This document shows, piece by piece, positions 1-31,212 of a stretch of 36,631 bases of DNA; position 1 is the first letter of the stretch, and the number at the start of each line of letters is the position of its first letter. The notes beneath the pieces were generated by a model, which worked only from the letters and a program-made list of their open reading frames with translations, had not been told where the DNA came from and ran no database searches. Origin of the DNA: an uncultured Granulosicoccaceae bacterium (GTDB lineage Bacteria; Pseudomonadota; Gammaproteobacteria; Granulosicoccales; Granulosicoccaceae); assembly GCA_937922015.1 (NCBI GenBank), contig CAKZVB010000320.1, positions 1-36,631 of the forward strand, in the 5' to 3' direction. The translations under genes were made by a program, and so were the position numbers.

Positions 1-553
1 ACCGGGGTCACTGATAAATTCAGGGGGATACCAGGCATTTTATCACGAGTGCGCATCACCGTGTGTTTCGTCGACACTCCAATGCACCATCTGAAGTCCG
101 CCCTTAGCGAGCCACAGCGATACATGTGTGATAGGGCAGACACCATTAGTAAAAAGCATTGCACAACCCATATAGAACAATTGTTTGATATGCCACTTAC
201 GCACCCCGAAAACTGTTGGCGAAGAAGCAGATTTCAGCAGGGCCACCAAGTCAAGTTGAGTTGGCATCTAAAACTACAGGACACTGACCTCAACACAGGC
301 ACCGGGATTGTCCGAACAAAGCACGCCTTGCCCATCCATACTGAAAACTCACCTCACTTTCCATATCGACAATTGACATCTGTTGATTCGGATCACCACT
401 AAACTTATCAATTTGCGACATATAGAGTCTCATTTTTCATGTTTTTACCCGACATCTGAACTAAACGCTGGTCGATCATGTCCACGCGGTAAGTCAGGAA
501 TTCTCGGATCCAGTACTGATCCATCAACGCGTCGACCTCACCGGAGATTCACT
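1..553. other. Non-coding stretch upstream of the CNPC cytochrome gene
   Basis: I see no convincing gene here. The open frames on both strands have no recognisable domain, signal peptide or good ribosome site. A perfect TTGACA lies at 373-378, but the hexamers 16-18 bases downstream (such as CCACTA) are poor -10 boxes, so a promoter is only suggested. The last 15 bases hold the Shine-Dalgarno site of the next gene. Confidence 0.5.
543..546 (+). promoter_or_regulatory. Shine-Dalgarno GGAG that sets a GTG start
   Basis: GGAG ends 7 bases before the GTG at 554-556. Starting there gives an N-terminus with basic residues, a hydrophobic segment and a lipobox, whereas the longer upstream reading adds 57 residues of no export character. 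This supports GTG-554 as the true start. Confidence 0.6.
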
Positions 554-1573
554 GTGAATCAACAACTCCCTAAGAAATACCATAGACACCCTCTATCCAC
601 CGCAGTTATAACTGGCTCGCTTGCAATGGCTGGCGCTATAACTCTTTCCGCCTGCAACAGTGCAAACTCTACAAAGGAAACAAATGAAGTCGCATCTGCG
701 GCAAGAGAAGTTCAGGCAGCAGCAAAAGCCTGTAACCCCTGCAACCCTTGCGCGGCAAAGGCATGTAACCCATGCGCTGCCAACGCGTGCAACCCCTGCG
801 CTGCCAAAGCCTGCAATCCGTGCAACCCCTGCGCTGCCAAGGCCTGCAACCCGTGCAATCCCTGTGCTGCCAAAGCCTGCAACCCGTGTAACCCCTGCGC
901 TGCCAAAGCCTGCAACCCGTGCAATCCCTGCGCTGCCAAAGCCTGCAACCCCTGTAACCCTTGCGCAGCGAATGCCTGCAATCCATGTAACCCCTGTGCC
1001 GCTGGCGGCATAAAGGCCTCACAGTTTGTTCGCCCGGCAGGTGTTGGACTTGACAGCGCAGCACTGGCTGGTCAAGCCGCGCTCGGTAAGCAACTCTGGA
1101 ATGACACCTCGTTGAGTTCGAACGGCTTGTCATGCAACAGCTGTCACAACGGCGGAGCGCTGCTCAACGCCTCTTTTGCACTACCTTATCCACATGAAGT
1201 TGCCATGCCTAAACAACAGGCCGGTGTCGGCGTGGTCGACATAGATGAAATGGTGAATTTCTGCATGCTTGCGCCTATGCAAACTGCCCCGCTAGCGTGG
1301 AACTCACAAGAGATTCTCGCGCTGTCTGCCTACAGCCTTGAGTTGCAAGCCTCTTTCAATCCATGCGCTGCAAAAGCTGCAAACGCGTGTAACCCCTGCA
1401 ACCCGTGTGCTGCGAACCCATGCAATCCATGCGCGGCAAAGAGCTGCAATCCATGCAACCCGTGCGCGGCAAAGGCCTGTAATCCTTGCGCAGCAAAGGC
1501 ATGCAACCCCTGCAACCCTTGCGCGGCAAAGAGTTGCAATCCGTGCAACCCTTGTGCGGCAAAAACAAACTAG
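554..1573 (+). CDS. Lipoprotein with a mono-haem cytochrome c domain between two CNPC-repeat arrays
   Basis: The 339-residue protein starts with a lipoprotein signal (hydrophobic stretch about residues 16-33, lipobox LSAC, lipidated Cys34), so it should be anchored in the outer membrane or on the periplasmic side of the envelope. Residues 58-150 form an array of nine units of the type KACNPCAA or [11 protein letters not shown]. Residues about 153-268 are a class I cytochrome c-like domain, with a CNSCH haem site at 194-198 and Met238 or Met242 as possible axial ligand. Residues 269-337 are a second CNPC array. I count 25 and 17 array cysteines. Haem attachment and export are inferred from motifs. 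Possible roles are electron transfer, binding of thiophilic metal ions, or a disulfide-linked scaffold; none is shown. I vaguely recall CNPC-rich proteins in other marine proteobacteria but cannot name a characterised one. Confidence 0.85.
725..1003 (+). repeat. N-terminal CNPC-coding tandem repeat array
   Basis: Nine degenerate in-frame units of 24 or 33 bases encode KACNPCAA or [11 protein letters not shown] (two carry N for K). Units differ mostly at third codon positions (AAC/AAT, TGC/TGT, CCC/CCT/CCG/CCA), so the peptide is better conserved than the DNA. No spacers are present, so it is not a CRISPR array. Confidence 0.9.
1358..1564 (+). repeat. C-terminal CNPC-coding tandem repeat array
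   Basis: A second block of the same repeat follows the cytochrome domain. It is less regular: units read [35 protein letters not shown] and KACNPCAA. It ends three codons before the stop. A Ser for Ala change (KSCNPC) occurs only in this array. Confidence 0.88.
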
Positions 1574-1607
1574 CACTTAGTCGCCAATTTGTTACGAGTC
1601 CGGGAAT

Positions 1608-1630
1608 ACCCCTGTTTATTGAGCAGGGGT
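1608..1630 (+). terminator. Hairpin after the CNPC cytochrome gene
   Basis: ACCCCTG (1608-1614) and CAGGGGT (1624-1630) form a perfect 7-bp stem with a 9-base loop, 34 bases after the stop codon. No T-run follows, so it is a weak candidate for an intrinsic terminator and may instead protect the mRNA end. Confidence 0.4.
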
Positions 1631-1742
1631 CATGAACAATCACGCAGCCCGCAACAGGTTCTGCGTAGTGCCGGATTCAAATGCCAGCGCATTTGGATTA
1701 CCAAACCTGCCCGGTCTTGCTAAAATCTCTATCAATGATTAG

Positions 1743-1762
1743 TTTGACTTTAAATAGTCAAA
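1743..1762. promoter_or_regulatory. Inverted repeat, possible operator
   Basis: TTTGACT (1743-1749), six bases, then AGTCAAA (1756-1762) make a perfect 7-bp inverted repeat 25 bases before the ATG of the next gene. Size and symmetry fit a dimeric regulator. It does not match the usual FNR (TTGAT-N4-ATCAA) or CRP (TGTGA-N6-TCACA) sites. A small RNA hairpin is the alternative. Confidence 0.4.
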
Positions 1763-1787
1763 TAACTCCGGCTACAAGTTACTAAAA

Positions 1788-2525
1788 ATGAATGATTCAA
1801 CTACGGCATCAGTCGAAAATAATTTATTCAACGATCTTTCATCCGATCAGCTAACGACCATGCAAGCCGCAGCTGGCACGATAGAGAATTGCTATCGATT
1901 GCTGCAAAAAAATGAAAGCTACGGCAATGTGGTCAGGGAAGTACTGAAAGAACAAGGGCAATTTGTAGAATACGACCATTACCCGAAAGGAGATGTTCAT
2001 GACAAAGAAACATTCTCCCAATACTTCTATCACGCACATCGCGGGCTAAACGGAGAAAACGGCCACTTCCACACCTTCCTTCGGGCTGGAGGCATGCCGA
2101 AACACATACAACCGGCTCCCTACAACGGAGAAGTAGCCTGGCCGGCCGGAGACGATGCATTAAGCCATATCATCGCTATTTCCATGGATCCCAGAGGCTA
2201 TCCGATAGGCTTATTCACCACTAATCGCTGGGTCACCGGTGAAACTTTCTACACCGCAGAACATGTAATAGAGATGCTGGATCACTTCAACATGGATCTT
2301 CTCTACCCTTCATGGCCGGTAAACCTGTGGATAACAGCCACCATCCAGCTATTTCGTCCACAGATCGAAACTTTGCTAAGACAGCGCGACAAAGCAATAA
2401 GTGACTGGCAACTAAAACACCCTGACCGGGATGCCTACGAAGACAGAGAACTGGAAATCACCAGCCAATTGAATATCGACGTTGATCAACAACTAACTCT
2501 TATAGAAGAGTCACTAAGGCAGTAA
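1788..2525 (+). CDS. Conserved cytoplasmic protein resembling DUF6969
   Basis: The 245-residue soluble protein has no signal peptide or membrane helix. Its middle contains a His- and aromatic-rich block at about residues 80-120 (YDHYPKGDV, YFYHAHRG, GHFHTFLRAGGMP). From memory this resembles the uncharacterised DUF6969 family; the function of that family is unknown to me. The clustered histidines suggest a metal or cofactor site, which is inference only. The C-terminal 50 residues are charged and probably helical. No clear Shine-Dalgarno site precedes the ATG, but no other start fits. The gene lies 214 bases after the CNPC cytochrome on the same strand, with a hairpin and an inverted repeat between, so it is probably a separate transcription unit. 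Confidence 0.75.
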   Translation: MNDSTTASVENNLFNDLSSDQLTTMQAAAGTIENCYRLLQKNESYGNVVREVLKEQGQFVEYDHYPKGDVHDKETFSQYFYHAHRGLNGENGHFHTFLRAGGMPKHIQPAPYNGEVAWPAGDDALSHIIAISMDPRGYPIGLFTTNRWVTGETFYTAEHVIEMLDHFNMDLLYPSWPVNLWITATIQLFRPQIETLLRQRDKAISDWQLKHPDRDAYEDRELEITSQLNIDVDQQLTLIEESLRQ

Positions 2526-18342: not shown

Positions 18343-19107
18343 ATGCGATTACAATTTCTGACCAGCGTACTTTTCTTAGCCAGTACCCTACTCACCGCAT
18401 GCGAAACCATGACGGCCTCCCAACGCGTAGCAGTGAGTGCGGGAGAAAAATGGGCACTGCTGCCTATTCAAAATCTGTCAAAAACACCACTTGCAGGCAG
18501 CCGGGCGAAGGCACTGGTGGAAACACATTTACGTGCAAAGGGCGTTCGCAATGTTGAAGTATACGAGGCAGCCCCTGACCAATCGTTAATGGCACTGCTG
18601 GATGAAGCGGGACAGATCAACGCTGCAAAGCAATGGGCAAAGGACAATGGCTTCATCTACGCAGTCACAGGTGTAGTGCAGGAGTGGCAATACAAAAACG
18701 GCCTCGACAACGAACCATCTGTCGGGCTGTCACTGAAATTTATCAATGTACAAAACGATGAGGTGATGTGGGTAGCATCTGCGTCCAGAACAGGCTGGGG
18801 CTATAACAACCTATCCAACGTAGCCAGCAAAACCATTGCAGAAATCATGGCTGAAGTACGCTTCCAGGGGCCACGCCCCGGACGTGTATCCGCACAACCA
18901 ATGATCGCTGCATCTCCACCGCCAATACAGCCAGCAACACAGGCCGCAATTAATGCTCAACCGCTTCCCGCAAGCACGATGACAAGCCCGGCAGACGAGC
19001 CCCCGGTAGCAGCCGCGCTCCCGGACCCAACGAGTACTGCCCCCGCGGAGGTAGAAAAGCAATTGTCACCTTATGAAAACAATCTAAGGGAAAGCACAAA
19101 TCGATGA
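18343..19107 (+). CDS. pelC: PelC outer-membrane lipoprotein, with C-terminal extension
   Basis: The 254-residue lipoprotein has signal peptide MRLQFLTSVLFLASTLLTAC (lipidated Cys20; Glu at +2 fits the outer membrane). The core, about residues 35-172, begins EKWALLPIQNLS and has the alpha/beta fold of PelC/LpoB-like lipoproteins. In Pseudomonas PelC forms a ring at the periplasmic face of the outer membrane that guides Pel polymer to the PelB pore. An unusual Pro/Ala/Ser-rich tail of about 80 residues (175-254) makes it longer than the 172-residue Pseudomonas protein. The first gene of the pel operon here, it overlaps pelD by ATGA. Confidence 0.88.
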   Translation: MRLQFLTSVLFLASTLLTACETMTASQRVAVSAGEKWALLPIQNLSKTPLAGSRAKALVETHLRAKGVRNVEVYEAAPDQSLMALLDEAGQINAAKQWAKDNGFIYAVTGVVQEWQYKNGLDNEPSVGLSLKFINVQNDEVMWVASASRTGWGYNNLSNVASKTIAEIMAEVRFQGPRPGRVSAQPMIAASPPPIQPATQAAINAQPLPASTMTSPADEPPVAAALPDPTSTAPAEVEKQLSPYENNLRESTNR

Positions 19108-20510
19108 TCAGTTTTAACTTGCCCTCATCAGCAGTCAAGAAACATAAAAAAAGTTTCTCGTGGACCCGGACAGGCCACAATAAAAGCTGGACACACAAAG
19201 CTATTGAGCTTGTTATTTTCGCCGCCGCGGTACCCGCGATTGGATATTTGTTCTTCAGTCACGACCCGGTTGGCATGAATGCCGGATTTCCATGGTTTAT
19301 TGTTCCACCAGTGGTCTTTGCCGCCCGCTATGGCGCTATCTGGGGCTTCCTGTGCGCAATAGCATCGGCTGCTGCACTGGCCTATCCGTTTGTGGCCTAC
19401 GCAGGTGAAGCAAGCCATCTGATTGCACTGGGTGTTGGCACAACGATATTAAGTATTGTTGTTGGTGATTACTCTACTGCGGGTAAAAAACAAAGCGCAC
19501 AGGAGTTTGCCGAAAACCAATACTTGCGACATCGGTTAAAAGAGTTTTCAAAGGACTACCACATTCTTAAGGTTTCACACGGTCAGCTTGAAGAATTTAT
19601 GGCCGGTCAACGCTTAAGTGTACGGCAGGCTCTACAGCAGTTAAAGCCGCTCTTAACCACCAACAACAACGAAGAACTACAAGCTGGTAGTGAGCTGATG
19701 GCAGTATTTTCCCAGTTTGGTGCAGTACAGGTGGCAGGTCTATATGGTATTAAAAGCCGTGATCGAATCAACCCCCGACCCGTTGCAACTCATGGCAACA
19801 TGCCTGAACTGCAATTGTTTGATCCGTTGTTAAAACTCGCTATTGAAAGCCATCAACTGATAAGTGTCAAGCTTGAAGCACAAGCTAATGAGACTGTTGA
19901 AAGCCAGTTGCTCGCTGTGGTTCCTATCGTAGATTCACATGATCATCTGCATGGAGTGCTGGCTATTAAAGATATGCACTTCATGGCTTTTCAACAGGAA
20001 AACCTCAACGTACTGGCCTTACTCGGAAGCTACATCGGCGACATGCTCACGCGCTCCAAGAGTGTTGGTGAATCACGCAGCGGTTGGTTTCTCGCCGAGC
20101 TGGACAACGCCGTTCGATTTGCAACGACCAATCGGGTTCAATCAGCACTGCTGGCCATTAAACTAAAAAACACCGATCAGACTCAATTAGTCGCGGACTT
20201 TCTTGGTTCGAATATCCGAAGCCTGGACAGTTCATGGCAACCCCACTCTGCTACAGGCAACAATACCGTGGTTATCCTCATGCCACTGATGAACGAAGAT
20301 CAATGCAATGCCTATTTACAGCGTATAGCGAAGAAACTTTTTGACGAGCAGAACATCGAGCTCAACAATGTCGCTTCTGAAGTGCGTATGAAACAGATCA
20401 AAAAGAGAGATACACGGGAAACTTGTCTGAAGTTCATCAACAACATGACTGGCGGCAACGAAGGCGAGAAACCCAAAAAAACAAAAGGGTGGTTAAAACG
20501 TGTTGCGTAG
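19104..20510 (+). CDS. pelD: PelD, inner-membrane c-di-GMP receptor
   Basis: The 468-residue protein has about four N-terminal membrane helices (residues 33-125), a short coiled-coil-like linker (about 133-175), a GAF domain (about 180-325) and a degenerate GGDEF domain (about 335-445). The catalytic GGDEF signature is absent; the region reads TGNNTVVI. An RxxD inhibitory-type site is kept as Arg372-Ser-Leu-Asp375, close to Arg367/Asp370 of Pseudomonas PelD, so c-di-GMP binding is likely retained. In the known system c-di-GMP-bound PelD switches on Pel synthesis through PelE and PelF. It ends 11 bases inside pelE. Confidence 0.95.
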   Translation: MISFNLPSSAVKKHKKSFSWTRTGHNKSWTHKAIELVIFAAAVPAIGYLFFSHDPVGMNAGFPWFIVPPVVFAARYGAIWGFLCAIASAAALAYPFVAYAGEASHLIALGVGTTILSIVVGDYSTAGKKQSAQEFAENQYLRHRLKEFSKDYHILKVSHGQLEEFMAGQRLSVRQALQQLKPLLTTNNNEELQAGSELMAVFSQFGAVQVAGLYGIKSRDRINPRPVATHGNMPELQLFDPLLKLAIESHQLISVKLEAQANETVESQLLAVVPIVDSHDHLHGVLAIKDMHFMAFQQENLNVLALLGSYIGDMLTRSKSVGESRSGWFLAELDNAVRFATTNRVQSALLAIKLKNTDQTQLVADFLGSNIRSLDSSWQPHSATGNNTVVILMPLMNEDQCNAYLQRIAKKLFDEQNIELNNVASEVRMKQIKKRDTRETCLKFINNMTGGNEGEKPKKTKGWLKRVA

Positions 20511-21510
20511 TCTGTTTGGAGTACCGGTACTGTGTGTCGCGCTGGCAGCAGAATTTGTGCTCGGCGCACATTTACTGACCGATATTGGAATATCCATAAC
20601 TCGTGAGCTATGGCTGGGGGCACATACTCTCGCCACCATACTGGCAGCAATATCTATCACATCCATGCTGCACAATCTGGTGCCGGGCAGAAGACTTCCG
20701 CTGATATTGCTGTTCGCATCACTTTGTTTCTTTATGCCATTCGTAGGAGCACTGGGTACATGCCTGGCAGTTACATTCGGTGCGACAATTGCCAATGGAC
20801 GCCATAAAGATAATATCTTCTGGCAGGTAACCAGCAATGCTGATCTTCCCTTCGCCGCTCCTATCAACCGACCACTGCCAAAACTCGATAGTCGGGGATT
20901 TGTAGAGCAACTGGCCTTTGACAGCGAGACAGACAAACTCTACAACAAGGTCGCCGCTGCAAAACATATACGCAACAGTGAATCAGCCCCCATACTTAAA
21001 AATGCTGTAGGCCATTCAAACGAAAGAATCAGACTGGTGGCTTACCAGATGCTCGACAAGAAAGTGAACAATCTGAATAGGGAAATTCAACGGCTCGAAT
21101 CCGATGCATTAGTGGCAGAGGGAATCGGAAAATCAAATATCCACCTTCAGATCGCCAACAACTACTGGGAACTTCTAACGCTCGAAGACGATGAACCGGT
21201 GGCTCGTGAAGAACTACTAATGAAAGCCGCCGGCCAGGCAGCACAGTCTTTGGCTATCGAGCCCGGAAACGTCAACGGGCATTTTCTACTTGGCCAGATC
21301 TATCTAAAACAGGGACACACAGAGATGGCCGTCAGATCATTCGAACGATCTGTAGAACTGGGCATCTCACCCGACAAAGCAATGCCATATATCGCCGAGG
21401 CGGCATATAAAACACGGGACTTTAAAAAGCTGCGAGACACTCTTGATAATATCAGTCCCGCATTTAGAGCTTACCCACCCATGTCAAACGTCATAGAGTA
21501 CTGGGCATGA
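20500..21510 (+). CDS. pelE: PelE, inner-membrane TPR protein
   Basis: The 336-residue protein has two or three hydrophobic helices in residues 1-95 and then a cytoplasmic helical part. TPR-like helices are visible at about residues 235-330 (VNGHFLLGQIYLKQGHTEMA...SFERSVELG). In Pseudomonas PelE joins PelD, PelF and PelG in the inner-membrane synthase complex. The start is GTG and overlaps pelD by 11 bases; the stop overlaps pelF by ATGA, so translation is tightly coupled. Length is near that of the Pseudomonas protein (329). Confidence 0.9.
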   Translation: MLRSLFGVPVLCVALAAEFVLGAHLLTDIGISITRELWLGAHTLATILAAISITSMLHNLVPGRRLPLILLFASLCFFMPFVGALGTCLAVTFGATIANGRHKDNIFWQVTSNADLPFAAPINRPLPKLDSRGFVEQLAFDSETDKLYNKVAAAKHIRNSESAPILKNAVGHSNERIRLVAYQMLDKKVNNLNREIQRLESDALVAEGIGKSNIHLQIANNYWELLTLEDDEPVAREELLMKAAGQAAQSLAIEPGNVNGHFLLGQIYLKQGHTEMAVRSFERSVELGISPDKAMPYIAEAAYKTRDFKKLRDTLDNISPAFRAYPPMSNVIEYWA

Positions 21511-23087
21511 GTAAATCACCAAAGTACAGCCCCGATAGTCACGCCAACATTTGTCTGCTACTGGAGGGCACCTACCCTTATGTTCGCGGTGGTGTTTCAA
21601 GCTGGGTAAAACAATTGATCGAAGGAATGCCTGACCTTACCTTTTCAATTGTATTTCTAGGAGGCGCACAAGACGAGTACGACAAACCATCCTATGAAAT
21701 TCCCGCTAATGTGGTTCATATTGAAAACCACTTCCTGATCGGCTCTGATAAAGAACCGATGACCAAAAAGAAGTTCTGGCAGCGTAAAACGGACAAAACA
21801 GATCTCTTTGAGAGAAACAGGCAATTACACGACACACTGGCCAACAGTGATTGTGAGATAGGTGTTGAAGCGGTCGAGGATTTCACCAGCCTGCTGACCG
21901 ACTCTGATGCGATTTCCCGCACCGACCTGCTGCACAGTGATGAAGCATGGGAAGCTATCCGTGAAAAGTATATCGATGCCCCCCCGGGACTCGATTTCAA
22001 TCACTTTTTCTGGACTGTACGAAGCATGCACAGCCCGCTATTCACATTGGCGAATATAGTTGCCAATGCGCCACCTGCTGACATGTATCACTCAGTATCT
22101 ACAGGCTACGCCGGATACCTTGGTGCAATGCTGAAAAGTAAAACAGACGCTCCCTATATTATTAGTGAACACGGTATCTACACTAAGGAACGCGAAATTG
22201 ACCTGGCCCATGTTGACTGGATACCGGAAGACCTGGATCCGTTTCGCGTCGGACTTGACGATAACATGGGTTATTTACGTCAAACGTGGATTAAATTCTT
22301 TAAATCTCTGGGCCGTATGTCTTATAGCTCTGCCGATCACATCTATACGCTGTTCAACGGCAATCGGCTCAGGCAAATACAAGATGGCGCACCCGAAGAA
22401 CGTTTGACGATTATACCCAACGGCGTAGCGGTTGATAAACTGAAACTTGTTCGTCGCGCCGACGATGCCGAGGTTCCACCGGTAATCGCACTGATCGGAC
22501 GGATAGTACCTATTAAAGACATCAAGACTTTCATTCGCGGCATGCGAATTATCGTTGCCAAGGTGCCGGAGGCGCAGGGATGGCTGGTCGGGCCGGAGGA
22601 CGAAGACACGGCCTATGTTGAAGAATGCCGAGCGTTAATCAATAGCTTTGGCCTTCAGGAATCTGTGAAATTTCTGGGCTTTCAAAAGCTCGATGAAATA
22701 TTCCCGCAAATCGGTTTAACCGTATTAACCTCCGTTTCAGAGGGACAGCCTTTGACAACACTTGAAGGTTTTGCAGCCGGTATACCTTCAGTCACCACGG
22801 ATGTGGGCAGTTGCAGCGAACTTATCTATGGATCATCTGAGCAAGACAAGTCCATCGGCAGCGCTGGCGCCGTGGTTCCAATCGCTAATCCCGGTCGCTT
22901 CGCAGAAGAAGTCATCCCACTAATAACTGATACCAATAAATGGCGCAGTGCCAGAGATGCTGCTATCACCCGCGTTGAAAAATACTACGACGAGAATCAG
23001 ATGCTAGAGCGCTACCGCAAGATCTACATCGACAATTTAAACCGTGCGCAAGCACCCGAAGCACTGAAAAAAGCAGAGGGGTTCTAA
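21507..23087 (+). CDS. pelF: PelF, Pel polysaccharide glycosyltransferase
   Basis: The 526-residue cytoplasmic GT4-family glycosyltransferase polymerises the amino-sugar backbone of Pel from UDP-sugars. The typical family opening ICLLLEGTYPYVRGGVSSWV is at about residues 13-32, including the GG of the nucleotide-binding loop. The C-terminal Rossmann half carries LTIIPNGVAVDK, ALIGRIVPIKDIKTFI and SEGQPLTTLEGFAAG, the last being the GT4 donor-binding motif with its Glu. It is slightly longer than the Pseudomonas protein (507). The gene overlaps pelE by ATGA and is followed after one base by pelG. Confidence 0.97.
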   Translation: MSKSPKYSPDSHANICLLLEGTYPYVRGGVSSWVKQLIEGMPDLTFSIVFLGGAQDEYDKPSYEIPANVVHIENHFLIGSDKEPMTKKKFWQRKTDKTDLFERNRQLHDTLANSDCEIGVEAVEDFTSLLTDSDAISRTDLLHSDEAWEAIREKYIDAPPGLDFNHFFWTVRSMHSPLFTLANIVANAPPADMYHSVSTGYAGYLGAMLKSKTDAPYIISEHGIYTKEREIDLAHVDWIPEDLDPFRVGLDDNMGYLRQTWIKFFKSLGRMSYSSADHIYTLFNGNRLRQIQDGAPEERLTIIPNGVAVDKLKLVRRADDAEVPPVIALIGRIVPIKDIKTFIRGMRIIVAKVPEAQGWLVGPEDEDTAYVEECRALINSFGLQESVKFLGFQKLDEIFPQIGLTVLTSVSEGQPLTTLEGFAAGIPSVTTDVGSCSELIYGSSEQDKSIGSAGAVVPIANPGRFAEEVIPLITDTNKWRSARDAAITRVEKYYDENQMLERYRKIYIDNLNRAQAPEALKKAEGF

Positions 23088-23088
23088 A

Positions 23089-24474
23089 ATGGCTGGTATA
23101 GGCTTCGAGCTTCGAAAATACCTTGATGAAGATTCCTTTACTGGAACGCTAAAGGCATACGGTTTTGCTGGTCTCATTAGTGCCGGCCCCTGGGTACTGT
23201 CTATTCTGGGGGTTATGCTAATCGGTATTGTGGCGATATCCCAAAAAGTTGGTGGCCGGGAGGTTGAACAATTCACCACATCGGTTACCTGGATAATGGG
23301 TACCTCATTAATACTATCCGGGTTCCTGCAACTGGTTTTTACACGATACATTGCAGATCGACTATTTGAAGGGCGTGATCATCTGATCAACCCCAATCTT
23401 TTCGGTGCAATGCTGATAACGACTGTCATCAGTGGTGGTATGGGCATCGCTGTCATGTTGACGCTTTTTGAAGAGTCATTCAGCTACGAAGTGTTGATGA
23501 TCGCCAACTTCGTCACCCTTTCCAATATCTGGATACTGGTGATATTTGTCGCCGGACTCAAGAAATTCAAGGTTATTCTATATTCATTTTTCTTTGGTTA
23601 TACCACCACTATATTGCTATCGATAGTATTGATTCCTTACGGTATCAGTGGACTCCTGGGCGGGCTGCTGGTGGGACATGCACTGCTGTTTTTCCTGATG
23701 CTCGCGGTGATTATCCCCGAATACCCGATGACAGAAACTGTACGTGTAGACTTTCTAAAACGCAAAGAAATATTTCCGGTACTGATCTTTGTCGGTGTGT
23801 TCTACAACCTGGGCATCTGGATTGACAAGTTTATCTTCTGGACCTACCCCGGCACCTCTGAGGCAGTTATTGGTCCACTACGCGCTTCACTGATCTACGA
23901 TCTTCCGATATTTCTGGCTTATCTGTCAATCATACCCGGCATGGCTGTATTCTTACTTAGAATTGAAACCGATTTCGCAGAAGCATACGACGGGTTTTTC
24001 AATGCAGTGCGCGGAAACGCCAGCCTGCAGGAAATTGAAACGCTTGGTAATGAAATGATACTGGCGGTACGCGAAGGTATATTTCAAATCATTAGAGTTC
24101 AAGGTATCACCGTGCTGATACTCTACATGCTGGGCCCAAAAATAGTTAGCTGGCTGGGCATTTCCGATAAGTTCATCCACCTCTACTACATTGATCTGGT
24201 TGGTGTGGCGGCACAGGTTCTTATGCTCGCTGTGCTTAATGTACTTTTTTACCTTGATCGTCTGAAGGACGCATTCTGGTTAACTCTGACGTTGCTTATT
24301 ACCAACAGCTGTTTTACATGGATCACTCTGGAACTAGGCCCAATGTACTACGGCTACGGTTTTGGATTATCAATGACACTGACTGCTTTCGTCGGCATAT
24401 TTCTACTGTCCAGCGAACTCGAAAATATCGAATTTCGAACCTTTATGCGTCCACGTGATGTCGCGACCGATTAG
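23089..24474 (+). CDS. pelG: PelG, polytopic inner-membrane Pel transporter
   Basis: The 461-residue protein has about twelve hydrophobic segments and the conserved start MAGIGFELRKYL, which is diagnostic for PelG. It belongs to the polysaccharide transporter side of the MOP flippase superfamily. It is thought to move the growing polymer across the inner membrane, in complex with PelD, PelE and PelF. Length matches the Pseudomonas protein (456). The ATG is one base after the pelF stop. Confidence 0.96.
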   Translation: MAGIGFELRKYLDEDSFTGTLKAYGFAGLISAGPWVLSILGVMLIGIVAISQKVGGREVEQFTTSVTWIMGTSLILSGFLQLVFTRYIADRLFEGRDHLINPNLFGAMLITTVISGGMGIAVMLTLFEESFSYEVLMIANFVTLSNIWILVIFVAGLKKFKVILYSFFFGYTTTILLSIVLIPYGISGLLGGLLVGHALLFFLMLAVIIPEYPMTETVRVDFLKRKEIFPVLIFVGVFYNLGIWIDKFIFWTYPGTSEAVIGPLRASLIYDLPIFLAYLSIIPGMAVFLLRIETDFAEAYDGFFNAVRGNASLQEIETLGNEMILAVREGIFQIIRVQGITVLILYMLGPKIVSWLGISDKFIHLYYIDLVGVAAQVLMLAVLNVLFYLDRLKDAFWLTLTLLITNSCFTWITLELGPMYYGYGFGLSMTLTAFVGIFLLSSELENIEFRTFMRPRDVATD

Positions 24475-24509
24475 AAGCCATTAAGACAAGTGCTCTGGAT
24501 ACTAATAAC

Positions 24510-27299
24510 ATGCTCAATAGATCAATATTAACCTGTCTTACCCGGCTGTGGTGCTTCGCATCACTTTTTATTGCAGGTATCGGCCACGCATCAACGGGCG
24601 GCAGTGTTGCATTCTATTATGGTCCCAATCCGCCGGTAAACGCACTATCACAGTTTGATCGGATAATTGTTGAAGCCGATAACGTCCAGGCGGATGAACA
24701 CCGGGAACTGAAAAGAAACGGCGCTGCAACCTTCGCCTATGTAAGTGTGGGCGAAGTTGGTCCTCATCGTAAGTGGTTTGATCAGATTCCGGGTTCTGCT
24801 GGAATAGGCACTAACACGGATTGGAATAGCAAAGTGATGGACCTGGCCAGCCCGGACTGGCATCGGTTTTTACTGCAGCGAATAAACGAACTGGTCAGCC
24901 GTGGCTACGATGGTCTGTTCCTGGACACGATGGACAGCTACCGGTTGTTTGCCACGACTCCGGAACAAATAGCAGCACAAGAGAATGGTCTGTCAAACCT
25001 TTTGTATCGTATAAAACGAAAACACCCTGACATCAGACTAATCTCAAACCGTGGCTTTGAAGTCATTGATACGGTTGCTCCCTACCTCGAAGCCATCGCC
25101 GCAGAGTCTCTCTATGCAGGATGGGACAATGCCGGGCAGACCTATCGTGATGTGCCTGAAGCAGATCGAAATTGGTTGCAGACAACTCTTACCAACATTA
25201 AAAACAAACACGATATCGACGTAATCGCCATAGACTACCTGCCACCGTCAGCACGCAGCGAGGCAAGAGATGTGGCCTCGAAGATTGCCCGGGCAGGATT
25301 TATCCCCTGGGTTGCTAACCCGGCACTGGACTACGTGGGTATTGGAACCCAGGAAGTAATCGCCCGGGATGTTCTGATGATATACGACAGCAGAGAGACC
25401 GGTGAAATAGAATATGCACTGGTCCATACCTTAGCTGCAATGCCACTGGAATACATGGGCTATGTCCCTGTCTACCATGACATCGCAAAAAAGCCGTTGC
25501 CATCGAGTGTTCTAAAGGGCCGATACGCAGGCATAGTTATGTGGAACGGGCGTCCGTTGAATGCTGACGGTTACCCTCAGTGGCTGGAGAGGCAATTTCA
25601 AGACGAAACCCCCATCGCATTCTTCAGTTCAATAGGCATGGACACCACCACAGCGCTAAATGACTACATGGGTGTTACCGCTGTCACAGAAATAGATCGC
25701 AATTCGCTGGCACCGCTGCGCAAGGACCGCATGATCGGTTTTGAATCACCAGCACCAACGCGCATCGACTACCTGACGATGCCAGTTAAAAATTCATCTG
25801 CCGACAACACCGCTCATCTGACTTACGCAGACAAGCACGGCGTTGAGATTGATACCGTGATTACCGGCCCGTGGGGCGGTATCGCCATCAGTCCGACAGT
25901 CATCAACTCCAAGATCGACACGACCGTTGACTGGATTATTGATCCGTTCCTGTTTTTGAAAAAATCGCTTCACCTGACAGATGCACCGATGCCCGACATC
26001 ACCAGTGAAAACGGCACCAGATTATGGTTTGCACACATTGATGGCGACGCACTGCCCTCATGGGCTGAATTGCCAGGTCGCAGATTGGGGGCAGAAGTCA
26101 TCCATGAAGAAATAATACGACCCTATGACCTGCCACACACCGTTTCCATTGTTGAAGCAGAAATGACTGCGATAGATGCCTATGCAGATCGTCGCGAGCG
26201 GATGACAAAAATCATGCGCGAGTATTTCGCTATGGACAACGTCGAAATCGCTTCACATACTTTCAGTCACCCTTTCCACTGGCAGAAGCTTACGGACGGT
26301 GCAGCCAGTGGCAAGCACAACCTTCGTCTACCGGGATATCGCTATAGCCTGGAGCGGGAAATTGCCGGATCGGTAAAATACATTGATGAATACCTGGCCC
26401 CTCCGGGCAAACGAACCAAAGTGTTGCTCTGGTCAGGTGATGCAGAGCCTCCCGCAGAGGCACTGGACGTTGTGGCAAAGTATGGATTGTTAAATATGAA
26501 TGGTGGTAACACCAGGATTAATAAAACACTGCCAACCGTTACCGCCATCAGCGCAAACACACGAATGATTGGAGGGCATATTCAGGTCTATGCGCCGATC
26601 ATGAACGAGAATGTCTACACCAACGATTGGACGGGACCATTCGATGGTTTTCGAAATGTACTGGAAACACTCGATATGACAGAATTTCCACGCCGCATAA
26701 AACCCGTCAATGTGTACTACCACTTTTACATTGGTACCAAAGCCGCTTCATTGCGTTCTCTAAAGGAAGTATATAGCTGGACTGACAAACAGCAGCTGTT
26801 TCCTGTATTCAGCAGTGAATATATTGTCAAAGTACCCTATTTTAGAAGTGCCGGTGTGTCCCGTTATCTGGACGGGCGCTGGAAAATCAGTGGCCTGGGC
26901 CCTATTCGGTCGCTTCGCAATTTGAAAAAGAACGCATGGCCTGACCTGACATCAAGTCAGTCGTTAGCAGGTGCCAGACAACTGCACGATGGTGTGTACA
27001 TACACACAAACGGTGCAAATACATTAAGTTTCCGGACACAATCCACCAAGCCACAACAGCCGCATCTGGTCGCAGCCAATGCGACAATAGATCGGTGGGA
27101 GAACCGTAGAGATGGTCGCATTAGTATGCGTTTTAAAGGGCACTCGCCTGTCGTTATTGAACTAAACGGCGACAAAAGGTATTGCAACATCAGCAGTAAA
27201 AACTCCACCATCAACGGTGCATTGACACCCGATGGCAACACCAGATATGAATTTACAACAAAGGATACCGGCGATGCAGTCATCAACTGTGAAACGTGA
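24510..27299 (+). CDS. pelA: PelA, periplasmic Pel hydrolase/deacetylase
   Basis: The 929-residue protein has a Sec signal (cut near GHAS, residue 28). Residues about 35-290 form the TIM-barrel hydrolase domain, with DGLFLDTMDSY and candidate acid Glu199 (AAESLYAGW), equivalent by position to Glu218 of Pseudomonas PelA. A middle region (about 300-480) resembles the reductase-like linker. The deacetylase domain follows, with Asp511/Asp513 in HIDGD and the metal ligands His583 and His587 in SHTFSHPFHW. A C-terminal beta-sandwich ends the protein. PelA removes acetyl groups from Pel, giving it positive charge, and its hydrolase trims the polymer. Here it follows pelG by 35 bases instead of leading the operon. 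Confidence 0.96.
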   Translation: MLNRSILTCLTRLWCFASLFIAGIGHASTGGSVAFYYGPNPPVNALSQFDRIIVEADNVQADEHRELKRNGAATFAYVSVGEVGPHRKWFDQIPGSAGIGTNTDWNSKVMDLASPDWHRFLLQRINELVSRGYDGLFLDTMDSYRLFATTPEQIAAQENGLSNLLYRIKRKHPDIRLISNRGFEVIDTVAPYLEAIAAESLYAGWDNAGQTYRDVPEADRNWLQTTLTNIKNKHDIDVIAIDYLPPSARSEARDVASKIARAGFIPWVANPALDYVGIGTQEVIARDVLMIYDSRETGEIEYALVHTLAAMPLEYMGYVPVYHDIAKKPLPSSVLKGRYAGIVMWNGRPLNADGYPQWLERQFQDETPIAFFSSIGMDTTTALNDYMGVTAVTEIDRNSLAPLRKDRMIGFESPAPTRIDYLTMPVKNSSADNTAHLTYADKHGVEIDTVITGPWGGIAISPTVINSKIDTTVDWIIDPFLFLKKSLHLTDAPMPDITSENGTRLWFAHIDGDALPSWAELPGRRLGAEVIHEEIIRPYDLPHTVSIVEAEMTAIDAYADRRERMTKIMREYFAMDNVEIASHTFSHPFHWQKLTDGAASGKHNLRLPGYRYSLEREIAGSVKYIDEYLAPPGKRTKVLLWSGDAEPPAEALDVVAKYGLLNMNGGNTRINKTLPTVTAISANTRMIGGHIQVYAPIMNENVYTNDWTGPFDGFRNVLETLDMTEFPRRIKPVNVYYHFYIGTKAASLRSLKEVYSWTDKQQLFPVFSSEYIVKVPYFRSAGVSRYLDGRWKISGLGPIRSLRNLKKNAWPDLTSSQSLAGARQLHDGVYIHTNGANTLSFRTQSTKPQQPHLVAANATIDRWENRRDGRISMRFKGHSPVVIELNGDKRYCNISSKNSTINGALTPDGNTRYEFTTKDTGDAVINCET
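27261..27265 (+). promoter_or_regulatory. Shine-Dalgarno AAGGA that sets the pelB start
   Basis: AAGGA lies 8 bases before the ATG at 27274, inside the end of pelA. The next in-frame ATG upstream, at 27232, has no such site and would add 14 residues of pelA-overlapping sequence. Confidence 0.6.
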
Positions 27300-30200
27300 A
27301 AGCCTGATACCGCCAGCATACCTCGTCAGCATTGCGATACTTCTTACCGTTGCATTTATCGTATTGCTGCCCTCGCGGGAAACGTTCTCCGTCACAACCA
27401 CTGAAAAAACAACTCAGAAAGCGGATATTGATGATCTTGACCTCGCATACCTGAAAGCTCGCGACGCCGCCGGCGATCTGCCTGCACAGGAGGTGCGCGA
27501 TGCAATCCACACCATGATCCGCAATCAAAAGTGGGAGCAGGCAAGACAGCTGATGGCTGAGCGACCAGATATTACACCGAATGCACAGGACTCGTTCCTT
27601 CTTCGTCTGGAAACTGCAACGGTCGGTTACTACGGCGCCGGCAACGCTGCCGCCGCTGCCTCCTACGAGGCTGGATTGGTTAGCCTGCTAACAGACTTTC
27701 TCGATACACCATCATTGCATGATGCAGGAACTCTGCAACGTGCGTCTCAAATCAGTGCAGACCTGCAACAAGCAGAGATGTCTGCATCATACAGCCTGCT
27801 GCTGGCTATTAATGACCCTGAAAATGCCGTTACCCATCTGGAGCAATGCGCCAGAACGCTCGCACAATTTGACATGCACAGCGAATCTGCTTCCTGTTAT
27901 AGAAGTGCCATTGAAAAAGCGCACGATGAAAAAAAAATATTCACTTTGAAGCGCGGCCTGATAGGACTACTGATCAGCAGCGGAGATACGTTTGCAGCCA
28001 ACGCAGAGCTTGAGAATCTGGTAGAAACCGCTCCGCAGGATGCACGAATACTCTCTCAGCTGGCAACGCTCACACTGGCTTCTGAACGTCCTGACCTCGC
28101 CTACCCGATATACGCTCAACTATCTGTTATCGACGACCGCCGCGCTATCATGTGGCTCGAAAAAGCCGCCACGTGGTCAGAAGCCTCCAACCTGCCCGGT
28201 CTTGCGGCCGAATATGTACTGGACATCGAACAGATAGCTGATGAGCAGTACAAGTTACCGCTGACCAAACGCAGACAGAAACTACTGCTTGCTGCAGGTC
28301 GCAATGAAGAAGCACTGCAAGCACTTCATCAGCGTCTGAGACTGCAACCCGGAAGTGCCGAAATTCTCATCGAAGGTATTGATCTGGCCGATGGCATGGG
28401 ACTCGCCACGCAAGCAATGGAATGGAACGAAGAACTCCTGAGAATTCGTCCGTTTGATATTGATGCCATGGAACGACAGATCAATTTTACACTGGCAAAC
28501 AAACAACTGGGCAGTGCACTGCTGTGGGCCAGGAAAACAGTAGAAGCCGATCCCATGGAAAAAGGACACAGACTTAAGCTGGCCCAGCTCGAAGAATGGA
28601 ATGGCAATGTGCAAGCTGCACAAACTCAAAGAATGTGGCTGGCCAAACATCATCCCAATAACGTTAACGACAAAGAACTCATCAGACTTGCCGAACTCAA
28701 CTGGGATTCCGCCACCGCTGCCGCAACACTGCGCCGCGTCGCAAGCCGTGAACCTTTGAACACACAAAACATAATTAAGCTGGTCAAGCTGTATGAACAG
28801 GACGGCCGACCGGATTTAGCTGCCGAAGCGTTGCAGGAGATGATGACCGGAGGCCAGCGTGACGCCATGTTACTGCGCGAGCTGGCGGCGCTGCAGAAAC
28901 ATCACAGCAAGTACACTGAATCGCTGCAAGCCTGGCAGTCATTTGCAGCCAGATTCGGACAATCCAGTGAAGAATCGATTAATCAAATGGAACTTCACTG
29001 GCGACTCCGGCAATACGATGCAGCCGGATCTGCCGCCAGCCGTGTTAACCCACTTTACCTGAGCAGCGCCAGCGATTACCAGGTAAAACTGTACAGCGAG
29101 ATCGGCTGGCGGTATCGCAAACCGGCATACGTTATTGCAGCGGCACCGTATCTGGACCGGCTTGATATGGACAACAGCAACCGCCTGGAAGCAGGACAAA
29201 GACTGGTCCAGTCCTATGTAGATCTTGGTGAAATTGAAACCGCGATTGAGCATTCCGAAAAACTATGGCGACAAACTGATGAAACTGCATTTTTGTTATC
29301 TACCATGCGCCTTGCCCTCGATTATGATGTCTATCCACACCTCGAAAGATATCTGGACGCCAATGGTGATCTGTTGCAGCTTCGTGAGATACCGGAATAC
29401 TGGCTAACCCTTGGCGACTACTACAACAGGAAGTCTGACACCACAGCCGCGTTAGAGACCTATGAAAACACGCTGATGATTCTGCCCGACAATGAGCATG
29501 CTATTGCCGGTATTATCTGGACCATGCTGGGTGATGACAAGTACACCCAAAGACTCGAACAAACACTGACAAAGTATGAGAGTACAGCGGTCACAATGCC
29601 GGAATTATGGAGTCCTTACGCGGTCGGCTACATGAAAGCAAAGAAACCCGAGGCCAGTCTGCGTTGGTTTAGCAAGCTGATGGAAAAAGACGATCACGAC
29701 TACAACATTCTGCTGTCCTTTGCAGATGCACTGGAACAAACCGGAAATTCGAATCACGCGTTTACCGTTCGCAATTACGCCATTGCGAAACTGCGCCCAC
29801 TGGTACTGGCAAACGCCGGCGAGAAAACCAATGCGCTTGCTCGTGATTATATAGGTCTACTGCGCACTTACGGCAGCGTTGGTGAAAACGAATTGTGGAC
29901 ACAGCGTTTACTTAATGAATTACCCGGTGCAACGGAGAAAGAAGACGCCTGGCGACGCGAAATGGCTGCAGCCTGGTATTTGTCGACACAAAGAAATGAC
30001 TACGCGAGACTCATTCTTACTAAAATGCATGATCAGCGTCTGCAAACCCCCGTTTGGCAGCAACTGGCACTGGCACTTGGTGACAATGATCTGAACACTA
30101 TTCAGGAAATACTGGCCAGTGACAAAGAGCTGTCAGCGGGTGACCGCATTCTTGCCCTTCGCAAAATCGGCAATGAAAAAGAGGCATACCAGCTTGCCAG

Positions 30201-31212
30201 ACATAACATGGATAATGGCAAGACAGAAAACGAACGTTTTACCGCCAGGGAGCATGTAATAGCATTACGCACCAATCGACCCGGCTACTATGCCGGCGCG
30301 TTGAAACAGCATGACATCGGCAATTTGAATATCACCGAAACCGGCCTGTCATTGCGTCACACACTTGCCGCAGAAGACCTGGGTTTTGCGGTTGACTACA
30401 AGCGCAGCGTGCTGGCATCAGATAAGTTGGCTGCAGACGGCTCCACCGAGGACGACGTCGCAGTATCAGCGTATTTCGGCAATTCAACACTTGGTGGCAG
30501 ATTGACCACTGGCATAAACACTCAAGGTGACAGCGAGCTTAACTACTCGTCCGGTCAATACTATGTTCGAGACCGTCAGGGCCGCAAAGAGCTGACTACT
30601 GAAGTATCATTCAACGAAGTGGTACAAAACAACGCTGAACTGCGATTAGCCGCTAAACAGGATCGCGCAGAGCTTGCCTACCAGCATTCAGTTGGCAAGA
30701 ATGAATTCATCAAACTAAGCGGTAACATGAATGAACTCACTACCCGCAGCGACGATGAGCAAATCTCAAAAGGATTTGGCGCAAGCGTCGAGCTTGGTAC
30801 TCGTGGATCTTTCGGCAGCAATAGCTGGACAATGGGTATAGTCGCTACCGGTAGTACAAGCGAGACCAATGCAACACTGCCCGTCAACCTGAGCGGAATA
30901 CCTGAATATACTACTCTGAACGCGGCCACAACTGCCGAAGCCCAGCAAGTAGCTGTCAGTGCATCTCTATTTCGTGGTGGGATAAATTCAAATTACCCGC
31001 AAGCAGCGTCTCCCCGCTACCACATGACCGCCCGACTAGGTCACAACTGGCCAGCCGAATCGGTTGCACTGCAATTGCACGCAGGTGCAGGCTTTAGATT
31101 AATGGGTAACGATGAATTAAGCTTTGAGCTGCAACATGAACAAAGCGGTGATCTGCTGCTTCCGGATTCAACGAACTCCACCATTGGACTTCAATACCGA
31201 AACCACTTCTAG
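27274..31212 (+). CDS. pelB: PelB, outer-membrane Pel export porin with TPR scaffold
   Basis: The 1312-residue protein has an N-terminal membrane helix (about residues 12-33, PPAYLVSIAILLTVAFIVLL), a long periplasmic superhelix of TPR-like repeats (about 60-1000) and a C-terminal beta-barrel (about 1020-1312) ending in a terminal Phe, as is usual for outer-membrane proteins. In Pseudomonas the TPR region binds PelA and guides polymer to the pore, with PelC as electrostatic funnel. It is longer than the Pseudomonas protein (1193). The start codon overlaps pelA by 26 bases. It is the last gene of the operon. Confidence 0.93.
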   Translation: MQSSTVKRESLIPPAYLVSIAILLTVAFIVLLPSRETFSVTTTEKTTQKADIDDLDLAYLKARDAAGDLPAQEVRDAIHTMIRNQKWEQARQLMAERPDITPNAQDSFLLRLETATVGYYGAGNAAAAASYEAGLVSLLTDFLDTPSLHDAGTLQRASQISADLQQAEMSASYSLLLAINDPENAVTHLEQCARTLAQFDMHSESASCYRSAIEKAHDEKKIFTLKRGLIGLLISSGDTFAANAELENLVETAPQDARILSQLATLTLASERPDLAYPIYAQLSVIDDRRAIMWLEKAATWSEASNLPGLAAEYVLDIEQIADEQYKLPLTKRRQKLLLAAGRNEEALQALHQRLRLQPGSAEILIEGIDLADGMGLATQAMEWNEELLRIRPFDIDAMERQINFTLANKQLGSALLWARKTVEADPMEKGHRLKLAQLEEWNGNVQAAQTQRMWLAKHHPNNVNDKELIRLAELNWDSATAAATLRRVASREPLNTQNIIKLVKLYEQDGRPDLAAEALQEMMTGGQRDAMLLRELAALQKHHSKYTESLQAWQSFAARFGQSSEESINQMELHWRLRQYDAAGSAASRVNPLYLSSASDYQVKLYSEIGWRYRKPAYVIAAAPYLDRLDMDNSNRLEAGQRLVQSYVDLGEIETAIEHSEKLWRQTDETAFLLSTMRLALDYDVYPHLERYLDANGDLLQLREIPEYWLTLGDYYNRKSDTTAALETYENTLMILPDNEHAIAGIIWTMLGDDKYTQRLEQTLTKYESTAVTMPELWSPYAVGYMKAKKPEASLRWFSKLMEKDDHDYNILLSFADALEQTGNSNHAFTVRNYAIAKLRPLVLANAGEKTNALARDYIGLLRTYGSVGENELWTQRLLNELPGATEKEDAWRREMAAAWYLSTQRNDYARLILTKMHDQRLQTPVWQQLALALGDNDLNTIQEILASDKELSAGDRILALRKIGNEKEAYQLARHNMDNGKTENERFTAREHVIALRTNRPGYYAGALKQHDIGNLNITETGLSLRHTLAAEDLGFAVDYKRSVLASDKLAADGSTEDDVAVSAYFGNSTLGGRLTTGINTQGDSELNYSSGQYYVRDRQGRKELTTEVSFNEVVQNNAELRLAAKQDRAELAYQHSVGKNEFIKLSGNMNELTTRSDDEQISKGFGASVELGTRGSFGSNSWTMGIVATGSTSETNATLPVNLSGIPEYTTLNAATTAEAQQVAVSASLFRGGINSNYPQAASPRYHMTARLGHNWPAESVALQLHAGAGFRLMGNDELSFELQHEQSGDLLLPDSTNSTIGLQYRNHF

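Follow-up and report, generated by a model that had tools for sequence, protein, structure and literature searches.

In an uncultured Granulosicoccaceae bacterium, a single SoxA/TsdA-like haem c domain is enclosed by two cysteine arrays that are maintained by selection; in relatives the array recurs as a module, and its genes are linked to those for DUF6969 and for an exported FGE-like protein. Three orphans are thereby tied together: the Cys-array module, DUF6969, the predicted fold of which finds no match in the PDB, and an atypical FGE-like protein. We tentatively read the system, at slightly under even confidence, as a poly-Cys scaffold that DUF6969 and the FGE-like protein would mature or load, that would carry a soft cargo and that would exchange electrons through its haem. 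The original prediction rightly took the protein for an undescribed one, as we found no existing name for a haem c domain between two selected Cys arrays, but it viewed the protein alone, from which the modular nature of the array and its linkage to two partner genes could not be seen.

Structure of the array gene

The window, by which we mean the whole stretch of 36,631 nt analyzed, contains the features listed in Table 1. All elements of the predicted Cys-array haem protein could be located, namely the ORF, the lipobox, the CNSCH motif and both arrays, and the earlier estimate of about 42 array cysteines agrees with a count of 42 (25 + 17), the remaining four being C34, C194, C197 and C237. 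The "nine CNPC units" ascribed to the N-terminal array hold as nine repeat blocks, seven of them double (CNPCNPC) and two single, which together contain 16 CNPC motifs. The product is probably exported and lipid-anchored, as had been proposed from the lipobox (LSAC34), and lipobox-like sites were seen, by inspection, in close relatives.

Table 1. Features of the array locus in the window
Feature	Position	Strand	Remarks
GGAG, Shine-Dalgarno-like	543..546	+	read from sequence; 7 bases to GTG
NPC-array cytochrome, probable lipoprotein	554..1573	+	339 aa, GTG start; relatives found
Lipobox LSAC, ending at Cys34	644..655	+	type II signal peptide, by inspection
N-terminal array	728..1003	+	residues 59-150; 16 CNPC, 25 Cys
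SoxA/TsdA-like monohaem cytochrome c domain	1004..1357	+	residues 151-268; PF21342, SoxA profile, Foldseek
Haem c attachment motif CNSCH	1133..1147	+	residues 194-198
Cys237 codon, candidate distal haem ligand	1262..1264	+	invariant in 27/27 aligned
C-terminal array	1358..1570	+	residues 269-339; 10 CNPC, 17 Cys
Intergenic gap	1574..1787		FGE-like position in 10 order genomes
DUF6969 protein	1788..2525	+	245 aa; PF22308, E = 2.3e-80; directly downstream of array gene

Asn-Pro-Cys (NPC) occurs 28 times in the protein, whereas 10,000 residue shuffles averaged 0.69 and never exceeded 7. Pairwise differences between 11 in-phase 33-nt CNPCNPC units amounted to 28/605, 28/605 and 342/605 at the three codon positions, or 4.6% at positions 1 and 2 combined vs 56.5% at position 3. 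Because the encoded residues are retained although the codons diverge, the array peptide is under selection, and the same differences led us to reject recent slippage as the origin of the array. The only Pfam model for the array was Cornifin, rejected as an identity since its score is below the cut-off; NCBIfam gave nothing, and no metallothionein model was among the Pfam and NCBIfam matches of the protein. A full-text literature search with the repeat strings, with most subscription papers outside its coverage, gave nothing relevant among the matches listed.

Elsewhere in the window, a Pel-type exopolysaccharide cluster occupies positions 18343-31212 of the + strand, with matches to PelD_GGDEF, a glycosyltransferase with DUF3492, PelG (E = 7e-148) and GH114, its other genes being Pel-like by position only.

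The haem domain

What had been described as a cytochrome c domain is indeed one haem c domain, more exactly a SoxA/TsdA-like one with an invariant cysteine, C237, that had gone unnoticed. It matches PF21342 (SoxA-TsdA_cyt-c) at E = 2.5e-7, with 31 bits against a cut-off of 27. PF03150 (CCP_MauG) likewise scores above its threshold (28.1 vs 25.6 bits, E = 3.7e-6), over residues 174-202 only; a di-haem peroxidase or MauG was rejected, as this match is limited to the CxxCH stretch and the protein has a single CxxCH. A family profile of 27 sequences, consisting of the window domain and 26 relatives (the alignment omits L045, which contains X, as well as P460-type rows and order-genome copies), was compared with PDB sequences and matched SoxA 1h31 at E = 1.4e-9, chiefly in a stretch that takes in most of the domain, followed by a second SoxA (4e-5) and TsdA (about 0.003), while peroxidases were matched at CxxCH only. 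In a Foldseek search with the AlphaFold2 model of the domain (pLDDT 92), TsdA or SoxA made up the top 13 of 29 rows, with probabilities of 0.95-1.00, TM to query of 0.54-0.60 and E of 0.02-0.13, none below 0.001.

Nine residues at domain positions 40-111 are invariant in all 27 sequences: C46, C49, H50, P65, H66, V68, M70, C89 and P93. C89, which is C237 of the protein, aligns in the profile alignment on a SoxA cysteine that we take to be the haem-1 ligand, Cys113. The haem is possibly His/Cys-ligated, with C237 as a candidate ligand, H66 and M70 of the domain being equally invariant. Between positions 40 and 111, none of the residues conserved in the 27 aligned sequences is an Arg, unlike in TsdA, where Arg109 and Arg119 are important (PMC4423706). 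We therefore speak of a SoxA-like haem without claiming a thiosulfate enzyme, and thiosulfate dehydrogenase was discarded as the first-choice activity.

The array as a module

Relatives were taken from the best 80 of 281 related stretches, which gave 79 loci; in 77 of them ORFs with ≥4 NPC were called, and L051 and L052, which gave no such ORF, were excluded. These 77 array loci were selected by similarity to the window protein and are not independent, because some of them come from one genome (e.g., L034 and L074). Repeat number is variable, at 5-52 NPC per ORF; some array ORFs are ~500 residues long, and many relatives are small and haem-free. The original prediction regarded CxxC spacing as essential, a view that the relatives contradict, since they keep NPC while CxxC dwindles or vanishes: L042 has 7 CNPC among 29 NPC, and in L096 and L209 none of the 14 and 17 NPC, respectively, is part of CNPC, CxxC being confined to the haem motif. 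By this comparison, the conserved unit of the array is Asn-Pro-Cys and not CxxC, which was dropped as the essential unit.

Judging from its domain contexts, the array is a module that occurs alone or fused to SoxA-like haem, P460-like or YceI domains. The first architecture, array-SoxA-like haem-array, is that seen in the window (best 80 of 281 stretches). In the second, two arrays are followed by a domain that by eye is cytochrome P460-like; a stand-alone P460-like relative in L094 matches PF16694 (9.5e-8), and the one fused protein run against Pfam, from L050, gave no match. The third, array-YceI-array, is found in Poribacterium (L086:7917-8921; PF04264, E = 3.7e-20) and has no CxxCH, and the fourth comprises short exported array-only proteins, often located beside other architectures. 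Record titles place arrays in Granulosicoccaceae, Rhodospirillales, Hyphomicrobiales, Vreelandella, Halospina and Hahella, and further in Entotheonella, SAR324, Nitrospirae, Zetaproteobacteria and Dadabacteria. One array-cytochrome (L049:7425-9017) has a C-terminal hydrophobic, arginine-ended tail resembling a sorting signal, and its gene is followed by one for a multihaem cytochrome.

The haem-domain profile matches 12 of 48 genomes of the order at E ≤ 1e-15, in each case within an array protein, and 24 of 274 genomes of the class. Seven of the class matches are strong (E < 1e-44), and all seven carry 6-28 NPC; the other 17 (1e-15 to 1e-20) have zero NPC repeats and look like a separate cytochrome family. 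Loss of arrays among homologs, which had been suggested as a check on their function, is thus not seen in any of the 12 order and seven strong class matches. Several of the array-less SoxA-like monohaem cytochromes (L241-L257) lie beside a twin-arginine-like exported protein, phosphoesterase-like by eye.

Linkage to DUF6969 and FGE-like genes

Clustering of neighbors at array loci (best 80 of 281 stretches) brought out two standout families, DUF6969 and an exported SUMF1/FGE-like family. Arrays are present in 18 of the 48 order genomes, or 17 without G033, a weak match (35% identity, 7 stops) that was dropped, tests being given with and without it. DUF6969 is found in 15 of the 48, all 15 within the array set (Fisher p = 1e-10 without G033 or 7e-10 with it, phylogeny ignored), and FGE-like genes in 13 at E ≤ 1e-20 and 12 at E < 1e-97, again without exception in genomes with arrays (Fisher p = 9e-8 for the 12 strong matches and 4e-8 for laxer sets, phylogeny ignored). 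Ten of these genomes (G006, G009-G011, G013-G018) have the order array, FGE-like, DUF6969 on one strand, as exemplified by contig 147 of G011 (array 38784-39764, FGE-like 39890-40678, DUF6969 40756-41364). The FGE-like gene lies apart in G005; G001 has array and FGE-like only, and G000, G031, G034 and G039 have array and DUF6969, with a strong FGE-like match absent. Across the 274 class genomes, the array profile, which misses some arrays (e.g., in G157), matched 11 and DUF6969 26, with an overlap of 9 (p = 7e-9, phylogeny ignored), and FGE-like genes at 1e-40 were found in three, two of them overlapping arrays (p = 0.004, phylogeny ignored). Array genomes G239 and G157 yielded no DUF6969 match and no FGE-like match at 1e-40, and DUF6969 was not found in array genome G108.

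Among the 77 array loci (best 80 of 281), 42 contain DUF6969 and 33 an FGE-like gene, for which the profile threshold was E ≤ 1e-30 in the locus and E ≤ 1e-40 genome-wide. Elsewhere in the genome, DUF6969 was found in 15 of 34 searched genomes without an in-locus copy (L074 was left out of this search and counted as without), and FGE-like genes in 26 of 44 lacking one, including a doubtful case, L086 (both for the best 80 of 281). At least in L036 and L084, DUF6969 adjoins the array and was overlooked by ORF calling. Overall, 57 of the 77 array loci are accompanied by DUF6969, 59 by FGE-like genes, 48 by both and 9 by neither, one or both partners thus being present in the same genome for 68/77 (best 80 of 281). 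An FGE-like frame shares the stretch (≤3.6 kb) with DUF6969 at 12 of the 18 DUF6969 loci obtained in this genome search, and eight of those 12 stretches have no array (best 80 of 281); therefore, the two pair even without an adjoining array.

DUF6969 of the window is probably cytosolic, acting before export, because no signal peptide was seen by inspection. Its conserved core is His-rich (H82, H84, E90, H93, H95, H127); Y81, H82, H84, E90, H93, H95, N146 and W148 are kept across 14 divergent members, H127 is nearly always conserved among them, and the conserved His/Glu residues suggest a metal center. The predicted model is confident (pLDDT 91, pTM 0.90), and a Foldseek comparison with the PDB gave no fold match (best E 1.8, TM at most 0.21), nor did a PDB sequence search give a useful one. 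Nothing on DUF6969 was found in the full-text literature, most subscription papers being outside coverage. A second DUF6969 copy is present in L183 (11122-12078 and 6792-7580), next to an animal-type haem peroxidase (PF03098) and with a GCPPK-repeat protein 3.5 kb off, and another in L182.

The FGE-like partner of most relatives examined belongs to the PF03781/SUMF1 superfamily (E = 3.8e-42 in L037), is exported by inspection, and scores below the cut-offs of the NCBIfam models matched. A C281-x-x-C284 pair in GGSWDDKGCGVCRPAARH, in the C-terminal GGSW region, is shared by 20 of 21 aligned members and by 22 of 30 further FGE-like frames, the other eight including fragments and distant SUMF1 members; the pair is missing in L064 and L228. 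Its CGVC spacing presumably differs from that of classical FGE. The share of CNPC is higher where the genome has an FGE-like gene (median 0.87 vs 0.56, p = 3e-5, phylogeny ignored, best 80 of 281). The window is a counterexample, being CNPC-rich, yet its own MAG (80.6% complete) did not yield the FGE-like subfamily, the best SUMF1-type match having E = 1e-18, and no FGE-like remnant was visible on inspection of the six-frame translation of 1574-1787. According to PMC12123546, FGE is a copper enzyme with the substrate motif CxPxR; the arrays do not conform to it, CNPC representing CxPx followed by N or A in place of Arg. The full-text literature on FGE with cysteine-rich proteins held nothing on point among the matches listed.

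Cysteine-repeat peptides next to DUF6969

In 17 of 26 class genomes, including that of the window, an ORF with Cys repeats and a hydrophobic stretch lies on the same strand as DUF6969 and ≤400 bases away from it; among 103 control genes taken from these loci, two have such a neighbor (p = 6e-13, the rule having been fixed after the peptides had been seen). By eye, such a protein is near DUF6969 in 22 of 26 (L143 being counted at ~0.9 kb), with 12 NPC cases and 10 with other repeats, and a recognizable one is absent in four. Repeat types include NPCAAK-like, SPCGL/SPCSL, and GCC or ATC, and the SPCGL/SPCSL and NPCAAK-like peptides have a similar leader, GSAxGLAAIAVAIDHTRHxLPEP. Short NPC-repeat ORFs missed by the array profile adjoin DUF6969 in G197, G204 and G240.

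Beyond the class, 4 of 168 records were inspected around DUF6969. On pSymA of S. meliloti 2011, 8 bases separate the end of an APC-repeat ORF from the aligned part of DUF6969, which follows it. On a B. glumae plasmid, an exported peptide with KC repeats (L226:3589-3858) precedes DUF6969 by 0.1 kb, and two Azospirillum records have no Cys-repeat neighbor in the surrounding 4-5 kb. The B. glumae peptide is also surrounded by thioredoxin, CcdA, sigma-70 family factor and arsenosugar genes. In L176, Pfam matches place an SPCGL/SPCSL-type peptide between a PF04143 sulphur transporter and a divergent DUF6969 with rhodanese; by eye, a mini-operon of YeeE-like transporter, xPC-repeat peptide, divergent DUF6969 and rhodanese-like protein recurs in L172, L173, L175-L177 and L179, with L176 being the Pfam-checked one. 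DUF6969 thereby gains a testable class of candidate substrates that extends over the alpha-, beta- and gammaproteobacteria, one host being the laboratory symbiont Sinorhizobium meliloti.

Possible mechanism and its alternatives

In the scheme that we favor, the Asn-Pro-Cys repeats of a Sec-exported, lipid-anchored scaffold would be the substrate of dedicated partner proteins, with DUF6969 acting on the array probably in the cytosol, before export, and an exported FGE-like oxidase serving as a further partner in most relatives examined. In the periplasm, the mature array would carry a cargo of soft, thiophilic character, and the SoxA-type haem, possibly His/Cys-ligated, would trade electrons with it. 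We consider it rather probable that the array is a substrate of the DUF6969 and FGE-like enzymes. The cargo could well be Cu(I) or sulfane sulfur, its most likely identities, at nearly even confidence, and electron exchange between haem and cargo is a more speculative step. The substrate-enzyme link draws on the linkage to DUF6969 and FGE-like genes, the conserved DUF6969 residues and the partial match of CNPC to CxPxR. Counted against maturation are the window MAG without the FGE-like subfamily, the 9 of 77 array loci with neither partner (best 80 of 281), the arrays without the Arg of CxPxR, and the Cys pair missing in L064 and L228.

A bolder extension, which we regard as doubtful, would make DUF6969 the founder of a new class of maturation enzymes for xPC-repeat cysteines of Sec-exported precursors, with an FGE-like copper oxidase acting alongside it. 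These precursors would range from ~60-residue peptides to ~500-residue haem proteins, and dozens of identical Cys-derived groups (formylglycine, thio-heterocycle, persulfide or similar) would be installed in them; if true, a redox protein would thereby acquire a polymeric surface that is reactive or binds metal.

The array may instead be an unmodified metallothionein-like buffer, with free thiols binding periplasmic Cu(I), Zn(II) or similar and the partners delivering metal or reducing thiols. Such a buffer would agree with the 42 array thiols of the window protein, the nature of FGE as a copper enzyme (PMC12123546), CtaG/Cox11 near L061, and an exported, conserved neighbor family, cupredoxin-like by eye, in 14 of 77 array loci (best 80 of 281), but we think it unlikely, since taken alone it leaves unexplained the dedicated DUF6969, the DUF6969-linked peptides with just 2-6 Cys (L173, L174, L176) and the retention of NPC although spacing changes. 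Two members of the cupredoxin-like family run against Pfam gave no match, and a weak EfeO match (E = 0.0045) was obtained for one; the family is exemplified by L047:6986-7492, and L073:6626-7120 is one of the members that terminate near YSCPLNTTPDY.

Also quite unlikely, and placed below the metal buffer, is a sulfur carrier in which the SoxA-like haem would join array cysteines to thiosulfate or sulfane sulfur, much as a SoxA fused to a multi-site SoxY might. The SoxA-family match and the cysteine aligned on SoxA point in this direction, as do the conjugation of thiosulfate to thiolates by SoxA enzymes (PMC4423706), the L176 operon described above, and YeeE/PF04143-type genes in 11 of 77 array loci, 10 of them within 5 kb (best 80 of 281). 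Against it stand the lack of a conserved counterpart to Arg109/Arg119 of TsdA at domain positions 40-111, the occurrence of arrays alone or with P460-like and YceI domains, and the position of the match on 1h31, the main part of which spans chain residues 57-144 and a weaker one 155-184, vs a SoxA catalytic domain at residues 177-282 (PMC4423706, the numbering of which may differ from that of the chain).

A disulfide-linked surface fiber, or a thiol redox relay in which haem passes electrons along the array, both already put forward in the original prediction, would suit the regular spacing, the probable lipid anchor, the haem and the multihaem cytochromes adjoining the L049 and L059 arrays; it is improbable, leaving the DUF6969 linkage unexplained and sitting poorly with highly variable array length and many small haem-free relatives. 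Neutral repeat expansion without function, already disfavored, would account for differing repeat numbers among relatives and is scarcely credible in view of the codon-position test on 11 units, the retention of arrays in 12/12 order and 7/7 strong class haem-domain matches, and the linkage with DUF6969 and FGE-like genes.

Comparison with known systems

If its cysteines are modified, the array would add a further class, next to the bufferins, to the Sec-exported precursors with modified Cys; if unmodified, it would still define a widespread haem-fused poly-thiol protein family for which we found no name. Metallothioneins resemble the array in their dense Cys in short motifs, whereas the array protein is exported, haem-fused and NPC-based. 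The SoxA/TsdA cytochromes (PF21342) share with the window domain the fold class, CxxCH and the Cys aligned on the SoxA cysteine; unlike them, the window domain carries only one haem, lacks a conserved Arg in the 40-111 region, and has Cys arrays on both sides. The FGE-like partner is connected to the FGE superfamily (PF03781, SUMF1) by the superfamily match and the Cys pair in the GGSW region, and departs from classical FGE in being exported, by inspection, and in scoring below the matched NCBIfam cut-offs.

No MNIO or DUF2063-type partner was found among the selected neighbors run against Pfam, a small part of the 671 within 5 kb. Bufferins and MNIO RiPPs, as described in PMC12452194, are like the present system in having Sec-exported Cys-motif precursors (export being judged here by inspection), some of them lipidated, with dedicated enzymes encoded next door; bufferins are copper-linked, and a few Buf1-cytochrome c-FGE fusions have been reported (PMC12452194). 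Unlike in bufferins, the repeat here is NPC/xPC, the linked genes are DUF6969 and FGE-like, and some array ORFs extend to ~500 residues and include SoxA-like, P460-like or YceI domains. We regard the array system as analogous to bufferins and do not claim membership; they are the nearest known kind, with different linked enzymes.
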